NCBI RefSeq assembly: GCF_020297055.1
Contig: NZ_JAIXCQ010000005.1
Span: 1-64,000, forward strand
DNA: 64,000 bases
Origin: Isoptericola luteus
Lineage (GTDB): Bacteria; Actinomycetota; Actinomycetes; Actinomycetales; Cellulomonadaceae
Reading direction: 5' to 3'
The translations under genes were made by a program, and so were the position numbers. Numbering within the stretch: position 1 is the first letter of the stretch; each line of letters starts with the position of its first letter. A model generated the notes under the pieces. That model saw nothing but the letters and a program-made list of their open reading frames with translations, was not told where the DNA came from and did not search any database. Positions 53,802-60,356 of this stretch are shown here, in pieces.

Positions 53802-54686
53802 GTGAGCATCCCCACCCCCGACGGCCCCGCCGGCGTCCCCGTCGTCCGTGTCACCGACCCCGCCGACCCGCGCCTGCGCGACTACACCGACCTCACGGAC
53901 GTCCGGCTGCGCTCCGTGCGAGAGCCCGCCGAGGGGCTGTTCATGGCGGAGTCGTCCTCGGTGATCCGCCGTGCGCTGGAGGCGGGTCACCGCCCCCGCT
54001 CGTTCCTCATGGCCGACAAGTCGCTCGCCACGATGGCCGACGTGCTGGCCGCGCACCCCGAGGTGCCGGTGTTCGTGGCCGAGGACGACGTGCTGCAGGG
54101 GATCACGGGCTTCCACCTGCACCGGGGGGCGCTCGCGGCCATGCACCGGCCCGTGCTGCCGGGCGTGCACGAGCTGGTCACGGGCGCTCGCGGGGGTGCC
54201 GGGGCGCGGCGAGTCGCGGTGCTGGAGGACATCGTCGACCACACGAACGTGGGGGCAGTGATGAGGTCGTGTGCTGCACTCGGCGTCGACGCACTGCTCG
54301 TGACACCGCGATGCGCGGACCCGCTCTATCGCCGCTCGGTGCGGGTGTCGATGGGAACGGTCTTCCAGGTGCCGTGGACACGCATGCCGGACTGGCCGAG
54401 CGCTGCCGGGGGGAGCGGCCAAGCCGGTGGCATCGACCTGTTGCGCGAACTTGGGTTCACTGTCGCGGCACTCGCACTATCGGACGACGCAGTGAGCCTC
54501 GATGACCTTGCGGCCGACCCGCCCGATCGGCTAGCACTCGTGCTCGGGACCGAGGGCGATGGACTCCGACCGAAGACCGTCGCGGCAGCGGACATGGTCG
54601 TGAAGATTCCGATGGCAGGGGGCGTTGACTCGCTCAACGTCGCTGCGGCGTCAGCTGTCGCATTCTGGGCAACTCGTGTTTTCTAG
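53802..54686 (+). CDS. TrmH/SpoU-type RNA 2'-O-methyltransferase, hybrid gene with a replaced 3' half
   Basis: A 294-aa SPOUT methyltransferase. The N-terminal substrate domain spans about residues 1-130; the knotted SAM domain has VDHTNVGAVMRSCAALG, RRSVRVSMGTVFQVPW, LVLGTEGDGL and IPMAGGVDSLNVAAASA, all intact. Codon use changes at about 54245: upstream is strongly NNG/NNC, downstream has many A/T third bases. A second, host-like copy of the same C-terminal part lies at 55764-56178. The gene is thus a fusion of the resident 5' half with a foreign 3' half, still in frame and probably functional. GTG at 53802 follows GGGGGAGA. Confidence 0.92.
   Translation: MSIPTPDGPAGVPVVRVTDPADPRLRDYTDLTDVRLRSVREPAEGLFMAESSSVIRRALEAGHRPRSFLMADKSLATMADVLAAHPEVPVFVAEDDVLQGITGFHLHRGALAAMHRPVLPGVHELVTGARGGAGARRVAVLEDIVDHTNVGAVMRSCAALGVDALLVTPRCADPLYRRSVRVSMGTVFQVPWTRMPDWPSAAGGSGQAGGIDLLRELGFTVAALALSDDAVSLDDLAADPPDRLALVLGTEGDGLRPKTVAAADMVVKIPMAGGVDSLNVAAASAVAFWATRVF
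54245..54252 (+). repeat. Left border repeat of the trmH insert
   Basis: GAACGTGG, encoding part of Asn-Val-Gly in the SAM-domain motif. Marks the switch from resident to foreign codon usage. Confidence 0.5.
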
Positions 54687-54704
54687 CGTGCCGTACCGGG
54701 ACGG

Positions 54705-55721
54705 CTAGTCGAGTGGTTCAAAACTGGGACGTGGCGCGAGTACGGGTGTCCTAGTCTCATTTACTAGGAGCCACTCGGGTGCCTGTACGGAAACGAGCCT
54801 GTGATCCACGCCGATGAGATCTTGTTGTGCGGCCTCGTTGAGTCCGCCAAGAATATCTGAAACCTTGGCCGTCGGAAATCTCTCAAGCTGCTCGGCAACA
54901 CGCTGACCCTTCGCACTGGGCTTGAGGTAGTACGGCGGTCGTTGCTGTTTTCCGATCGTGTATACCGCCGACGCTACGGACCAGTATGCGTCGTTAAATA
55001 GGCCCATAAAGCCATCGGGGTCCGGGAGGACAGCGAGCCAGAGCCCACGGGCGCGGTCATAGCGAACGCCGGGGCTGAGGTCCTTGGCTGCCGGAACGAT
55101 GCCGACCCGGAGGCCAGGGCCTCCCTCCAGCTGGTGATGATTGCTCTTAATCGTCGCGGCCGCATACCGTCTAGCATGCTCGTTGGAAAGAAAGGCATCA
55201 GATTTCCATACCTTCCGAATGCGATGGCCGAGCATAGATTCTGATCCTGCACCGCGGGCTGCATGGCGGAGCCAGTCGCTTCCGAAGCGATACGGGCGCC
55301 CCTGGCTATCGGGTAAGAGCACGGCTTGCTCGCCGGCGTCCTGTACCACAGCTTCGAGGAAGCCAAGATACTTAGCTCGCTCGTAGCCGAAGAGAAGCGA
55401 AGTGGTTCCGGAAGAGCCCTTGAACACTTTCGGAGAGGTTCGTGCGAGCGCATCAGCAACGATTTCCGTCACGCGTGGTTCTTCGCCAGCGATTGCTTCG
55501 TGGACTGCCCATTCGAAGCCGTCTCCGCGCATTCCCTTGTCGCGTTCGAGTCTTGCATAATGCGACATCTGTCGCATTGTGACGTTTACTCGGTCAACGT
55601 TGAGGTCTTGGAGGCTTAGCTGATCCAGCAAGGCACTCAAGATGGATCTAGCCACCGCATAGAGGGCTCGGCCGTACTCGTCCACGGGCTCGCGCTGGGC
55701 GAGAAATGTGACATCGCTCAC
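54705..55721 (-). CDS. Unknown protein carried by the trmH insert
   Basis: A 338-aa soluble protein with lower G+C than all neighbours and A/T-rich codons. No close family name is certain. The segment KSDAFLSNEHARRYAA, then TIKSNHHQLEGGPGLRVGIVP, recalls an uncharacterised actinobacterial family with W-K-x-D-x-F...T-x-K-x-N...LEG-x-x-GLR core. The Asp...Lys spacing resembles a PD-(D/E)XK nuclease, but the acidic residue before Lys is missing. FEWAVHEAI near residue 75 is another conserved-looking motif. GTG at 55721 follows GGGAGA. Longer in-frame extension to 56255 is only antisense to trmH. A defence or restriction role is a guess from its cargo-like position. Confidence 0.75.
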   Translation of the reverse strand: MSDVTFLAQREPVDEYGRALYAVARSILSALLDQLSLQDLNVDRVNVTMRQMSHYARLERDKGMRGDGFEWAVHEAIAGEEPRVTEIVADALARTSPKVFKGSSGTTSLLFGYERAKYLGFLEAVVQDAGEQAVLLPDSQGRPYRFGSDWLRHAARGAGSESMLGHRIRKVWKSDAFLSNEHARRYAAATIKSNHHQLEGGPGLRVGIVPAAKDLSPGVRYDRARGLWLAVLPDPDGFMGLFNDAYWSVASAVYTIGKQQRPPYYLKPSAKGQRVAEQLERFPTAKVSDILGGLNEAAQQDLIGVDHRLVSVQAPEWLLVNETRTPVLAPRPSFEPLD

Positions 55722-55763
55722 GGAGCGAGTCTCCCATGCATGCCCACGTGGACCGAACGCGAA

Positions 55764-55771
55764 GAACGTGG
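55764..55771 (+). repeat. Right border repeat of the trmH insert
   Basis: GAACGTGG again, at the point where homology to the TrmH C-terminal half resumes. Confidence 0.5.
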
Positions 55772-56178
55772 AGGCGATCTTCCGTAGCGCCGCGGCCCTC
55801 GGGGTCGACGCCGTGCTCGTCTCCCCGCGCTGCGCCGACCCGCTGTACCGGCGCAGCGTGCGGGTCTCGATGGGCACCGTCTTCCAGGTGCCGTGGACGC
55901 GGCTCGAGTCGTGGCCCGGCGGGCTGGAGGCGCTCGCCGCCGACGGGTTCACCGTGGCGGCGCTCGCGCTGTCCGACGACGCCGTCAGCCTGGACGACCT
56001 CGCAGCCGACCCGCCGGAGAGGCTGGCGATGGTGCTCGGCACCGAGGGCGACGGCCTGTCGCGCGGCGCCGTGGCGGCCGCGGACGTCGTGGTCAAGATC
56101 CCGATGGCCGGGGGAGTGGACTCGCTCAACGTGGCCGCGGCGTCGGCCGTGGCGTTCTGGGCGACGCGCGCGGGCTGA
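55764..56178 (+). pseudogene. Displaced resident 3' half of trmH
   Basis: This stretch encodes the TrmH SAM domain again from NVEAIFRSAAALGVDAV to the stop, with the host's NNG/NNC codon use. It is very similar to the foreign copy in 54245-54686, but the foreign copy has an extra 11 or so residues after the WPSAAGG region and many synonymous differences. It has no stop codon or frameshift, so the separation is probably recent. It lacks the N-terminal domain and a clear start; an upstream ATG at 55708 would add unrelated residues. Confidence 0.88.
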
Positions 56179-56242
56179 CCCGTCCCTTCGCGGCACCGGT
56201 GAGCCGGATCACAGATCCGGGGGTGTTCACCGAGGGCGATGA

Positions 56243-56257
56243 AGGTTAGCCTCACCT
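56243..56257 (+). promoter_or_regulatory. DtxR/IdeR iron box of the siderophore ABC operon
   Basis: AGGTTAGCCTCACCT matches 14 of 15 positions of AGGTWAGSCTWACCT. It contains the -10 TAGCCT (56247-56252), which lies 7 bases before the GTG at 56260. An iron-loaded repressor bound here would block transcription. Confidence 0.85.
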
Positions 56258-56259
56258 TT

Positions 56260-57132
56260 GTGAGTCAGACCTTACCGACGGAGGGCCTCGCGCTGGCGGG
56301 CCGGGACCTGAACCTGTCCTACGACCGGCGCACCGTGGTCACCGGCGCCGCGATCGAGCTGCGCCGTGGCGCCGTCACGGCGCTCCTGGGCCCGAACGGC
56401 TCGGGCAAGTCGACGCTGCTGCGCTCGCTCGCGCGCCTGCACCGGCCGGACGCCGGCGGGGTCACGCTCGGCGCCGACGGCGCCGACGCCCTCGCGCTGC
56501 ACCCCAAGGACTTCGCCCGGCAGGTGACGCTGCTCTCGCAGAGCCGGCCGACCCCGAGCGGCGTCACCGTGCGCGACGTCGTCGCCTACGGCCGCCACCC
56601 GTACCGCGGACGGTTCCGCACCGCCGACCCCGACGGCCCCCGCGCCGTCGGGCACGCCATGGAGGTCACGGGCGTGGCAGCCATGGCGGACCGCGGCGTC
56701 GACGAGCTGTCCGGGGGAGAGCTGCAGCGCGTCTGGCTCGCCACCTGCCTCGCCCAGGACACGGGCGTGCTCCTGCTCGACGAGCCGACCACCTACCTCG
56801 ACCTGCGCTACCAGGTGGAGCTGCTCGACCTGGTGCGCGACCTCGCGGCCGTGCACGGCGTCGCGGTCGGCGTCGTGCTGCACGACCTCAACCAGGCCGC
56901 CCAGGTCGCCGACCACGTCGTGCTCCTGGACTCCGGCGTGGTGCGTGCCGCCGGCAGCGTCGACGACGTCCTGACCGGTGACCTGCTCACCGACGTCTAC
57001 GGCATCGACGTCGCCGTCTACACCCACCCCGTGACGGGCCGCACCTGCTGCGAGGCCGTCGGCCGGCACGACGTGCGGCGTTCCGCCGACGACGACGTGC
57101 GGGTCCTCACGGACCAGGCCGTCGCGGTCTGA
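56260..57132 (+). CDS. Iron-siderophore ABC ATP-binding protein (FecE-like)
   Basis: A 290-aa ATPase: Walker A GPNGSGKSTLLRSL, VRDVVAYGRHPYRGRF typical of FecE/FhuC, signature LSGGELQRVWLATCL, Walker B LLLDEPTTYLDLRYQ, switch His in VLHDLNQAAQVAD. GTG at 56260 is preferred over ATG 56239, since that ATG lies upstream of the operator and -10. It powers the adjacent fused permease. Confidence 0.93.
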   Translation: MSQTLPTEGLALAGRDLNLSYDRRTVVTGAAIELRRGAVTALLGPNGSGKSTLLRSLARLHRPDAGGVTLGADGADALALHPKDFARQVTLLSQSRPTPSGVTVRDVVAYGRHPYRGRFRTADPDGPRAVGHAMEVTGVAAMADRGVDELSGGELQRVWLATCLAQDTGVLLLDEPTTYLDLRYQVELLDLVRDLAAVHGVAVGVVLHDLNQAAQVADHVVLLDSGVVRAAGSVDDVLTGDLLTDVYGIDVAVYTHPVTGRTCCEAVGRHDVRRSADDDVRVLTDQAVAV

Positions 57133-57138
57133 CGGGCC

Positions 57139-57161
57139 TGCCGGGGCGCGACGTCCCGGCA
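57139..57161 (+). terminator. Intercistronic hairpin between ATPase and binding-protein genes
   Basis: Perfect 7-bp stem TGCCGGG/CCCGGCA with a 9-base loop, 7 bases after the ATPase stop. It may attenuate the operon or stabilise the downstream mRNA for the lipoprotein. Confidence 0.45.
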
Positions 57162-57206
57162 CCTCGATCCCCCCTGCTCTGCGTCACCACAACCCGAAGG
57201 ACACCC

Positions 57207-58193
57207 ATGCGCATCACCACCCGTCCCCTGGTCGCCGGCGTCACGGCGGCGCTCGCCGTCGTCGCGCTCGCCGCCTGCGGCACCACCGAGGACCCGGCTG
57301 CCGAGGCGGCCGGCGAGACCGCCGCGGCCGCCGGCCCGGTCACGTACACCGACGAGCGTGGCGAGCACACCCTCGACGCCCCGGCCGTGGACGTCGTCTC
57401 CCTCGAGTGGGGCCTCACGGAGAACCTCGTGGCGCTCGGCGTCGAGCCCGCCGGCCAGGCCGACGTCGCCGGATACAACACCTGGGACACGGTCGCGCCG
57501 ATCGATGCCGGCATCCCCGACGTCGGCACGCGCGGCGAGCCGAGCCTCGACGCGATCTCCGCGCTCGAGCCGGACCTCGTCGTCACCACGACGGACATCC
57601 CCGAGAACGTCATCGCGCAGATCGAGGAGATCGCCCCCGTGCTGACCCTGCGCGGCTCGGACGGCGAGGACCCGATCGGCTACATGCGCCAGACCGTCAC
57701 CACGCTGTCCGAGGTGACCGGCACCCAGGACCAGGCCGAGGCCGTCCTGGCGGACTTCGACGCCAAGGTCGTCGAGGCCACCGCGGCCCTGGAGGAGGCC
57801 GGCGTCGGCGGCGCCGAGTTCACCATGGCCGACGGCTGGCTCGCGAACGGCACCGTCTCGGTCCGCATGTACACGCCCGGCTCGTTCTTCGGCGCGCTCG
57901 GCGAGGAGATCGGGCTCGTCAACGCCTGGACCGAGGGCGGCGACCCCGACTACGGCCTGGCGCAGACCGACGTCGAGGGCCTCACCCAGCTCGGCGACGT
58001 GCAGTTCGTCTACGCCGCGAACGCCAGCGAGGCCGACCCGTTCGCCGACGGTCTCAAGGACAACAAGGTGTGGGAGCAGCTGCCCTTCGTGACCGCGGGC
58101 GACGTGCACCGCATCCCGGACGGCATCTGGATGTTCGGCGGGCCGCTGTCCGCCCAGGCGTACATCGACGCGCTCGTCGACGCCCTCGCCTGA
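57207..58193 (+). CDS. Iron-siderophore binding lipoprotein (FecB/FhuD-like)
   Basis: A 328-aa secreted lipoprotein. The signal peptide ends in the lipobox ALAAC at Cys23 or so, followed by an acidic linker. The two-lobed class III binding fold shows VVSLEWGLTENLVALGVEPAG, ALEPDLVVTTTD and the C-lobe ending VPDGIWMFGGPLS-like region. It captures the ferric complex for the permease. ATG at 57207 follows GAAGGACACCC. Confidence 0.92.
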   Translation: MRITTRPLVAGVTAALAVVALAACGTTEDPAAEAAGETAAAAGPVTYTDERGEHTLDAPAVDVVSLEWGLTENLVALGVEPAGQADVAGYNTWDTVAPIDAGIPDVGTRGEPSLDAISALEPDLVVTTTDIPENVIAQIEEIAPVLTLRGSDGEDPIGYMRQTVTTLSEVTGTQDQAEAVLADFDAKVVEATAALEEAGVGGAEFTMADGWLANGTVSVRMYTPGSFFGALGEEIGLVNAWTEGGDPDYGLAQTDVEGLTQLGDVQFVYAANASEADPFADGLKDNKVWEQLPFVTAGDVHRIPDGIWMFGGPLSAQAYIDALVDALA

Positions 58194-58241
58194 CCGCCCC
58201 CCACCCCGCGACACCCTGAGCACCCGAGAGACGGAACCCGC

Positions 58242-60356
58242 GTGACGGAGCTGATGAACGGTCCGACGACCCCCGGACCGGTGACGTCGGTGTCGCCCGA
58301 GCCGGTCGCGCCCGCGCGCGGCCGGCTCGGGGCGGTCTTCGCGGGGACGCTGCTCGCCGTGCTCGTCCTGGGCGCGGTGCACCTGACGCAGGGCACGGCG
58401 GACGTCGGGCCGCTCGAGGTGCTCCGGTCCCTGGTCGGCGCGTCGTCCGACGAGACGGCCGCCGTGCTGATCTCCTCCCGGCTCCCGCGCCTGCTGGCGG
58501 GGGTGCTGGTCGGTGTCGCGCTGGGCGCGGCCGGTGCGGTGCTGCAGTCAGTGGCGCGCAACCCGCTCGCCTCTCCCGACAACCTCGCCGTCAACGCCGG
58601 CGCCTACGTCACGGTGGTCGGCGTGGCGGCGCTGGGCGTGACGGTGCCGTTCTACCTCCAGGGCGGGCTCGCCTTCGCCGGCGGGCTGCTCGCCGCCGGG
58701 CTGGTCCTGGTGATCTCCCGCGGCGGCTCCGACGGGCCCACCCGGCTGGTGCTCGCCGGGTCGGCGGTCATGCTGGCGCTGCACGCGCTCACGATGGTGC
58801 TGCTCGTGCTCTTCGAGCAGGAGACCACGGGCCTGTTCGCCTGGGGCAGCGGCAGCATCGTCCAGTCCGGTTCACGGACGGTCGCGCTCGCGACCCCCGT
58901 CGTAGTGCTCGGGCTCGCCGTCTCGATGCTGCTGGTGCGCCGGCTGGACCTGCTCGCCCTCGGCGACGACGCGGCGAGCGTGCTGGGCATCGACGTGCGC
59001 CGCACGCGGGTCGTGTCCGTCGTCGTCGCCGTGCTGCTGGCGGCCGTGGCCGTCACGGTCGCCGGGCCCGTCGGCTTCGTCGGGCTGGCGGCCCCGGTCA
59101 TCGCGCGCCTCGTCGGGCGCAAGGTGCCCGGCCTGGGGCGGCACGCCCTGCTGCTGCCGTTCTCCGCGCTCGTGGGCGTGGTCGTCGTGCTCGGAGCGGA
59201 CGTCCTGCTGCGTGCCGTGCTCCCCGCCCAGGCCTCGCTCATCGTGCCCACCGGCGTGGTCACGACCGTCCTGGGCGCGGTGCTGCTCGTGTGGCTCGCG
59301 CGCCGCCTGCGGGACTCCGGCGCGGGAGCGCGGGGGGCCAGGGGGGCGCTGGGGCGGCCCCGCAGCCGCGCGCGCGTGGTCGTGGTGGTCGTGGTGCTCG
59401 TGGTGGCGCTCGCGGCGGCCGTCGTGGCGGGCCTGCTGCTGGGCGACCGGATCGTGCTACTCGGGGACGTGGCGAACTGGGTGTCCGGCACGGCGGGCCG
59501 CCAGGTGGGCTTCGCCCTCGACCTGCGGATGCCGCGGGTGCTGGCCGCGCTGCTCGCCGGGGCCGCGCTGGCCCTCGCCGGCACCGTCGTGCAGGCCGTG
59601 TGCCGCAACCCGCTGGCCGAGCCCAGCCTGCTGGGCGTGACGTCCGGCGCCGGGCTCGGCGCGGTGACGATGCTCCTGCTCGTGCCCGGCGTGGGTATCT
59701 GGCCGATGTCGGCCGCCGCCGTGGCCGGAGCCGTCGTCGTGTTCGGCGGCGTCTACGCGCTGTCGGCCCGCGGTGGCCTCGCCTCCGAGCGGCTGGTGCT
59801 CGTCGGCATCGGCGCGCAGGCGGGGACGACGGCGCTCATCAGCCTCGTCGTGCTGATCGTGGCGCCGTGGGACGTGAATCTCGCGCTCACCTGGCTGTCC
59901 GGTTCCACCTACGGGCGCAGCATGGCGCAGCTGCTCCCGGTGGCGCTCGCCCTGCTGGTGCTGACGCCGCTCGTCGCGGTCTCGGGCCGTCAGCTCGACG
60001 TGCTCGCGCTCGACGAGGACACCCCCCGGGTGCTCGGGGTGCCCGTGGACCGGGCCCGTCTGGTCCTGCTCGGCGCGGCGGCGCTGACGACCGCGGCCGC
60101 GGTGTGCGCCGTCGGCGTCATCGGGTTCGTCGGGCTCGTCGCCCCCCACGCCGCGCGCGCACTGGTGGGGGCGCGCCATCGCCGCGTGCTGCCCGTCGCG
60201 ATGCTGCTCGGGGCGCTGCTCGTCTCCGTGGCGGACACGCTCGGCAGGGTGGTCATCGCGCCGGGACAGATCCCCGCGGGCCTCGGCACGGCGCTGCTCG
60301 GCGCCCCGTACTTCGTCTGGCTGCTGTGGCGCAGCCGGGGCGGCCGCGCCACCTGA
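58242..60356 (+). CDS. Fused double-domain iron-siderophore permease (FecC-FecD fusion, FhuB-like)
   Basis: A 704-aa permease made of two BtuC-like halves. Half 1 has SRLPRLLAGVLVGVALGAAG and ARNPLASPDNLAVNAGA; half 2 repeats this as LRMPRVLAALLAGAALALAG and CRNPLAEPSLLGVTSGAG from about residue 425. Each half has about ten helices, with a short Arg/Gly-rich cytoplasmic linker near residue 365. Both coupling regions (GPVGFVGLAAP and GVIGFVGLVAP) are intact. GTG at 58242 is the likely start. Confidence 0.94.
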   Translation: MTELMNGPTTPGPVTSVSPEPVAPARGRLGAVFAGTLLAVLVLGAVHLTQGTADVGPLEVLRSLVGASSDETAAVLISSRLPRLLAGVLVGVALGAAGAVLQSVARNPLASPDNLAVNAGAYVTVVGVAALGVTVPFYLQGGLAFAGGLLAAGLVLVISRGGSDGPTRLVLAGSAVMLALHALTMVLLVLFEQETTGLFAWGSGSIVQSGSRTVALATPVVVLGLAVSMLLVRRLDLLALGDDAASVLGIDVRRTRVVSVVVAVLLAAVAVTVAGPVGFVGLAAPVIARLVGRKVPGLGRHALLLPFSALVGVVVVLGADVLLRAVLPAQASLIVPTGVVTTVLGAVLLVWLARRLRDSGAGARGARGALGRPRSRARVVVVVVVLVVALAAAVVAGLLLGDRIVLLGDVANWVSGTAGRQVGFALDLRMPRVLAALLAGAALALAGTVVQAVCRNPLAEPSLLGVTSGAGLGAVTMLLLVPGVGIWPMSAAAVAGAVVVFGGVYALSARGGLASERLVLVGIGAQAGTTALISLVVLIVAPWDVNLALTWLSGSTYGRSMAQLLPVALALLVLTPLVAVSGRQLDVLALDEDTPRVLGVPVDRARLVLLGAAALTTAAAVCAVGVIGFVGLVAPHAARALVGARHRRVLPVAMLLGALLVSVADTLGRVVIAPGQIPAGLGTALLGAPYFVWLLWRSRGGRAT

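Follow-up and report, generated by a model that had tools for sequence, protein, structure and literature searches.

The staphylococcal cassette chromosome is mobilized by serine recombinases and has an rRNA-methyltransferase gene as its target. Islands of the Islander/TIGER type, such as the trmE and dusA islands, split a gene and restore it, leaving the displaced fragment as a marker at their distal boundary, as far as the accessible descriptions go. According to the available parts of two reports, Streptococcus ICEs with a single serine integrase reside in rumA (PMC4701971), and the M. abscessus plasmid pIF05, which has a serine integrase, inserts into a SpoU-like methyltransferase gene (PMC10654092). 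The integrase of the Camvirus phages Kamino and Sitrop is named in PMC11536984; a word search of the accessible text of this article gave no mention of TrmH or of an integration site. No publication on codon 149 of trmH, or on a hot spot at this gene, was found in the open-access literature.

In the window (the whole stretch of DNA that was analysed, 64,000 nucleotides) trmH is interrupted by a cassette that restores the 3' end of the gene, as an earlier note on this DNA had claimed. The junctions are exact, the hybrid reading frame is open and the patch that completes the gene is foreign. Genomes are designated by G numbers and loci by L numbers below.

Layout of the interrupted trmH gene

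The following features were assigned (GC3, G+C content at third codon positions):

53802–54686, + strand: hybrid (chimeric) trmH, single open frame, 294 aa
53802–54245, + strand: host 5' half of trmH; GC3.953, neighbour-like; relatives are 60–86% identical here
54245–54252, + strand: left core GAACGTGG; codon 149 begins at 54246, and the same codon is the left junction of other elements
54246–54686, + strand: foreign trmH 3' half (patch), which completes the gene; GC3.726
54705–55721, − strand: cargo gene P0001, 338 aa, GTG start; the single reverse gene of the cassette
55722–55763, no strand: right end of the cassette, terminating in GCGAAG; used in the comparison of GAA[GC] before the core
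55764–55771, + strand: right core GAACGTGG, exact second copy of the left core
55765–56178, + strand: displaced native trmH 3' half, stop-free; GC3.978; 89% identical to G011

The 8-base repeat reported earlier is present at both joints, and the spacing of its two copies (54245 and 55764) gives a cassette size of 1,519 bp. By itself this repeat is little proof; the strength of the case lies in different elements that split the gene at one codon. Codon 149 sits within the conserved DHTNVG motif, and the most plausible role of the short repeat is that of the core in an attachment site for a large serine integrase. A comparison of GC3 over both joints, as proposed in the earlier note, revealed a switch at GAACGTGG, from.953 before to.726 after it, and at the right joint a change from.615 in the cargo gene to.978 in the displaced half. 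The two genes neighbouring trmH have values of.932 and.963. An imprecise junction between the halves, which would have spoken against an insertion, was not observed.

The hybrid product contains a full SpoU_methylase domain (PF00588, profile positions 3–141 of 142, E 6.7e-32), as is characteristic of a SpoU/TrmH methyltransferase; no NCBIfam equivalog scored above its cut-off. Because the domain is complete and patches differ from each other by few amino acids, the hybrid methyltransferase is presumably functional. Changes between patches are mostly silent (G071 versus G078 and G185: dN.014–.027, dS.278–.306); for the window patch versus G012, dN is.123 and dS.885. The displaced half is in frame, and its protein is 82% identical to the new 3' half. 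At the DNA level the two 3' halves pair over stretches of 113, 110 and 100 nt at 81–82%, far more than expected by chance.

The cassette shares with gene-restoring islands a restored target, a displaced fragment and a common core at both ends. An integrase of its own is absent, since its content is the patch and P0001 only, with no match to PF00589 or PF00239 at the locus. An integrase gene beside the attachment site, as in large-serine-integrase elements, is found in Kamino, Sitrop and genome G806, and not in the window. These data agree with the earlier description of an element with one cargo gene and without integrase that enters a protein-coding gene and restores its 3' end.

On the 3' side of trmH, positions 56239–60356 encode an ATP-binding protein, a binding protein and a membrane permease, which by eye resemble an iron-siderophore importer. 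Genes resembling this set are located downstream in G013 and on one contig of G028.

Empty and occupied sites in other genomes

No gap separates the two trmH halves (gap 0) in 28 of 29 relatives, which document the empty site. This number includes the occupied genome G024, because a fused gene is contiguous too. The sole exception is G028, with two whole trmH copies in tandem at a contig end (L037), which may be an assembly effect. An ancient two-copy arrangement common to the relatives, named in the earlier note as evidence against an insertion, is not found. A search of 58 genomes (own genome included) for trmH 3' pieces gave extra pieces, among the matches listed, only in G024, G028 and G031 of the 57 other genomes.

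Two surveys were based on a second, displaced trmH 3' half behind trmH as the sign of occupancy. In the order, a search with the displaced 3' half gave matches (E 1e-14 or better) in 384 of 396 genomes; 50 genomes had at least two, and all 50 (own genome included) were inspected. Twelve have the displaced half on the contig and strand of trmH itself and were counted as occupied (G000, G031, G071, G078, G082, G094, G117, G144, G173, G185, G226 and G277). The other multi-match genomes contain paralogues of ~40% identity, copies elsewhere in the genome, one split gene or contig-end fragments. For the family, matches were obtained in 214 of 221 genomes, 13 of which match at least twice, and 11 are occupied (G000, G024, G028, G031, G774, G806, G848, G891, G907, G908 and G916); G000 and G031 count in both surveys, and in G028 and G891 the trmH pieces are on separate contigs. 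G302 was dropped as an occupant because of fragments at contig ends, and G384, G830 and G920 because each has a single split gene (the last two being those of the family survey). The proposal of a hot spot inside trmH is borne out by these numbers. At the class level, a trmH query matched in 333 of 394 genomes; the follow-up concerned seven genomes whose matches were exceptionally strong, and two of these (G617 and G625) show the linker arrangement described below.

In G023 (L134) there is no displaced copy; here the 3' half of trmH clusters with patches of elements, and part of a resolvase-like gene lies ~4 kb behind trmH. This genome is perhaps a decayed occupant, and the occupancy counts are therefore lower bounds. 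In G891 (L150) a distance of 12.2 kb separates identical trmH 3' halves, which suggests that one element was inserted in tandem or duplicated. The AbiEii-like gene and the right end of G891 are similar to their counterparts in G031 (89.9% over 884 nt).

Element sizes at the site range from 1.5 kb to ~302 kb. The site is therefore not confined to the very small genomic-island type suggested in the earlier note.

At the left junction, different elements break trmH at the same codon, so the other trmH genes with different cargo at this codon that the earlier note had advised looking for do exist. Core and patch are separated by a linker of 75, 78, 96, 99 or 249 nt in 12 genomes, which represent 9 distinct elements, and in all 12 the linker length is divisible by three. 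Past the linker, the elements repeat residues from upstream of the core, e.g. RRSRIAVLEGLVDHTNV. Linker-less elements, the window's included, could arise by recombination of the two repeats with deletion of the linker. The right core is preceded by GAA[GC] in the window, G024, G774, G806 and phage Kamino; this motif is absent from Sitrop and the other islands.

Twelve patches form one group (G617, G503, G144, G082, G071, G078, G185, G277, G031, G094, G226 and G117) with values of 99/91 in a smaller and 99/92 in a larger tree. With 135 columns and 76 rows, the forks are only indicative. The trmH halves of Kamino and Sitrop fall just outside this group. A simple interpretation is complicated by the native rows, nearly all of which are from the family of the window, and by the displaced copies: those of G071 and G226 fall inside the group, and those of G078, G082, G117, G144 and G185 among the natives; for G503 no displaced half was found within the stretch read. 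The window patch is outside the group as well and clusters with the patches of G806, G907, G908 and G916, with the displaced copy from G916, and with trmH of G023 and of G027, either of which might be an old hybrid (93/86); in the smaller tree it stands with G023, G027, G009 and G012. The fused and displaced halves of G024 are sisters.

Cargo genes

Many occupants of the site carry phage-defence genes, mostly without an inserting enzyme, and several have non-defence cargo. G031 contains four Wadjet genes (JetA–D, the second type of PADLOC) and an AbiEii-like gene. The element of G078, which by DNA identity is also that of G071 and G185, carries Type I restriction-modification M, S and R genes together with Mrr. 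Type I restriction-modification genes are found in G082, G117, G226 and G094 as well, in G117 with an additional OLD-like gene. In G916 the Lamassu genes LmuB and LmuC and an OLD-like protein are among the passengers, and the cargo of G028 is HipA. The classification of whole elements by cargo covers occupants other than G173, G277, G848, G891 and G907. One-gene cassettes occur in the window, G024, G617 and G774, each with different cargo: a 490-aa protein with weak ATPase matches only in G024, AbiD in G617 (E 4.7e-54) and a 421-aa protein with a weak TIR-effector match in G774 (E 5.6e-6). Non-defence cargo is represented by LysE in G625, where no displaced half lies within the stretch read, and, as judged by eye from translations, by enzymes in G908 and transport and metal genes in G144.

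P0001 belongs to no family in Pfam, NCBIfam or PADLOC; in PADLOC 0 families match at E up to 1, so P0001 is not a known anti-phage defence gene by a model match. One scan of a genome collection gave relatives at 29 loci in several phyla, 52–81% identical, and in none of the DNA stretches examined at these loci does a trmH of this type lie beside them. P0001 is present in 3 of 396 genomes of the order, two of these being distant. A 50% identical relative is encoded by Pseudomonas phage H66 and a distant one by Pseudomonas phage AUS531phi, in both cases within a few kb of DNA-methylase genes (L158 and L159). A link of P0001 to DNA methylases, prompted by these two phages, was dropped after three phage methylases matched nothing in the 29 cargo loci.

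Conserved in P0001 are GDGFEW, D175...K192 and a KTDLFLS...AATVKSN-like stretch, which in our view recall the PD-(D/E)xK nuclease motif. The structure model is weak (pLDDT 69.6), and Foldseek gave no match to it at E 0.001 or better. P0001 may perhaps be an anti-phage effector, possibly a nuclease; it is solely the company of the other cargo at the site that suggests a role in defence.

Mode of insertion and comparison with known systems

We propose, with a probability of roughly 0.6, that codon 149 of trmH is a large-serine-integrase attachment site and that the window contains a one-gene cassette whose integrase acts in trans or was lost. In detail, codon 149 of actinobacterial trmH, in the DHTNVG motif, would be the chromosomal attachment site for a family of large serine integrases. 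The elements would carry an in-frame trmH 3' half beside their own attachment site; integration would yield a hybrid methyltransferase and move the native 3' half to the opposite end of the insert. The cassette in the window would represent a minimal member of 1,519 bp, composed of patch and one cargo gene without recombinase, and an integrase of this kind may serve such integrase-less cassettes in trans. The proposal is based on the exact junctions, the foreign patch, different cargo at the same codon, the movement of one element between families and the large serine integrase that lies next to the patch or the right junction in a 302-kb interval and in two phages. Linker lengths divisible by three, the largely silent differences between patches and the defence genes of many occupants speak for it as well.

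In the Streptomyces phages Kamino (PP750867.1) and Sitrop (MT701598.1) a trmH 3' half lies directly beside the serine integrase gene, in frame and 87 nt from a GTGGGCGC core. Read by eye, this core is flanked by inverted arms, which place the phage centre a few bases downstream of the AACGT of the islands. Consequently, the island enzyme need not be that of the phages. G806 encodes a large serine integrase of 470 aa (PF00239, E 3.6e-30, and PF07508), 44% identical to that of Kamino, and its gene starts ~25 bp from the displaced half, at one end of the 302-kb interval between fused and displaced trmH. This interval (L148, L149, L154 and L155), of which ~76 kb of DNA were read, is a very large island. 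A 1,597-aa protein in it resembles by eye a DNA polymerase III alpha chain.

A profile from class integrases and the two phage enzymes detected no further large serine integrase in the trmH stretches to which it was applied; one further match is on another contig of G617. Thirty loci of Kamino-like integrases, from 33 of 394 class genomes, include none with a trmH piece next to the integrase. Among viral contigs, an island-type attachment pattern gave one match, in low-GC DNA without trmH, which was taken as chance, and a second pattern gave none. Viral locus L088 was rejected as a patch carrier because it holds a whole trmH, and a Microbacterium plasmid match because it looks like a whole gene.

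Several observations count against the serine-integrase reading. No integrase was found in the cassette of the window, and the single large serine recombinase that was compared from its own genome is 25–29% identical to the type of Kamino, Sitrop and G806. The right-end core of G806 differs by one base, and the patch of G024 is not visibly foreign. In G907 (L147/L146) the trmH 5' half is split between residues 120 and 131 by an insertion of ~760 bp, so that the hybrid gene is probably broken. Finally, the cargo of G144, G625 and G908 is not related to defence.

The missing integrases could also be explained by decay: each occupant would have arrived with an integrase, later deleted, so that the small cassettes are what is left, without any movement in trans. 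In line with this, G806, whose patch groups with that of the window (93/86), has an integrase exactly where others have none, and remnants are seen in G023. However, in four one-gene cassettes with different cargo (window, G024, G617 and G774) the right end is either exact or still present as a remnant, and an 8.1-kb element in G071, G078 and G185, inside which no integrase was found, moved between three families. We regard decay as unlikely, though as a serious competitor.

The DNA of this 8.1-kb element is 92–98% identical over two aligned parts, whereas the trmH 5' halves of its three hosts share 42–52% protein identity, which indicates a transfer between families. In the different hosts, host-specific sequence reaches the core on the left and resumes from the core on the right. 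Such a pattern is that of site-specific recombination. Homologous recombination between trmH genes, without a site-specific enzyme, could in principle have brought in the cassette, as patch and displaced half are homologous to any trmH, and a cassette once formed could spread in this way. In that case crossovers should be scattered over the gene instead of meeting the core on both sides, and this explanation is highly improbable.

A core of 5–8 bp would suit tyrosine integrases as well, and a different recombinase, of tyrosine type or host-encoded, might make the junctions. Yet PF00589 (tyrosine recombinase) matched in no trmH interval of the 14 genomes searched (a set without G774, G848, G891, G907, G908, G916 and G617), and a tyrosine recombinase was rejected as the mover; the enzymes at the junctions of the phages and G806 are serine integrases. 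We consider such a recombinase very improbable. The two similar adjacent 3' halves and the tandem whole copies of G028 might suggest that trmH was duplicated in tandem long ago, with a gene between the two copies. This can practically be dismissed, since relatives have one contiguous gene and the two 3' halves of the window are placed apart in the tree and have very different GC3 values.

In the same 14 genomes the only trmH intervals with a PF00239 match are those of G082, G117 and G226, where the match is to a small gene. Together with G907 and G916, these genomes have this small resolvase-like gene, which starts at a constant position, ~230–265 bp from the right core (L075, L077, L080, L144 and L143/L142); remnants of it occur in G023 and perhaps in G094. 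In an alignment with two ordinary resolvases, neither the serine of RVS nor the LDRLxRS motif is present in any of the five proteins; we take these to be the catalytic residues. Extending the serine-integrase reading, Actinobacteria might share dispersed, integrase-less defence cassettes, the smallest with a single gene. Each would have an attachment site and a trmH patch in frame and would exploit the large serine integrases of phages or big elements that use this site, some cassettes keeping the serine-less resolvase-like protein, perhaps as a DNA-binding recruiter. This extension is tentative, and we put it at somewhat less than even odds.

If the serine-integrase reading holds, codon 149 of trmH would be a coding-gene attachment site kept over many actinobacterial families, at which defence systems are gained and lost. 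Looking for a second 3' half of trmH is a simple way to find unknown defence genes, and the serine integrases with attB at trmH could serve as integration tools. If cassettes are indeed moved in trans, phage-type integrases would spread anti-phage genes, and the invader's own enzyme would install them at the integration site of the phage.

The staphylococcal cassette chromosome differs from the trmH elements in both recombinases and target. Islander/TIGER-type islands, as accessibly described, are defined by their own integrase gene, whereas most trmH occupants examined have none; in addition, the trmH elements insert in the middle of their target gene, and the patch comprises 137 codons. The rumA ICEs resemble the trmH elements in the serine integrase, the RNA-methyltransferase target and short direct repeats, but according to the available text the exchange involves the integrase gene and shifts the reading frame of both proteins, without a full 3' patch (PMC4701971). 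Insertion of pIF05 occurs, in the accessible part of its description, at the sixth codon and not at the DHTNVG motif (PMC10654092). Hitcher elements (CALINs, MITEs and satellites) rely on the recombinase or packaging of a helper, as the available part of PMC11389934 describes, while for the trmH cassettes dependence on a helper is an inference. Kamino and Sitrop share with the cassette an in-frame trmH 3' half, located next to a large serine integrase, and differ from it in being complete phages.
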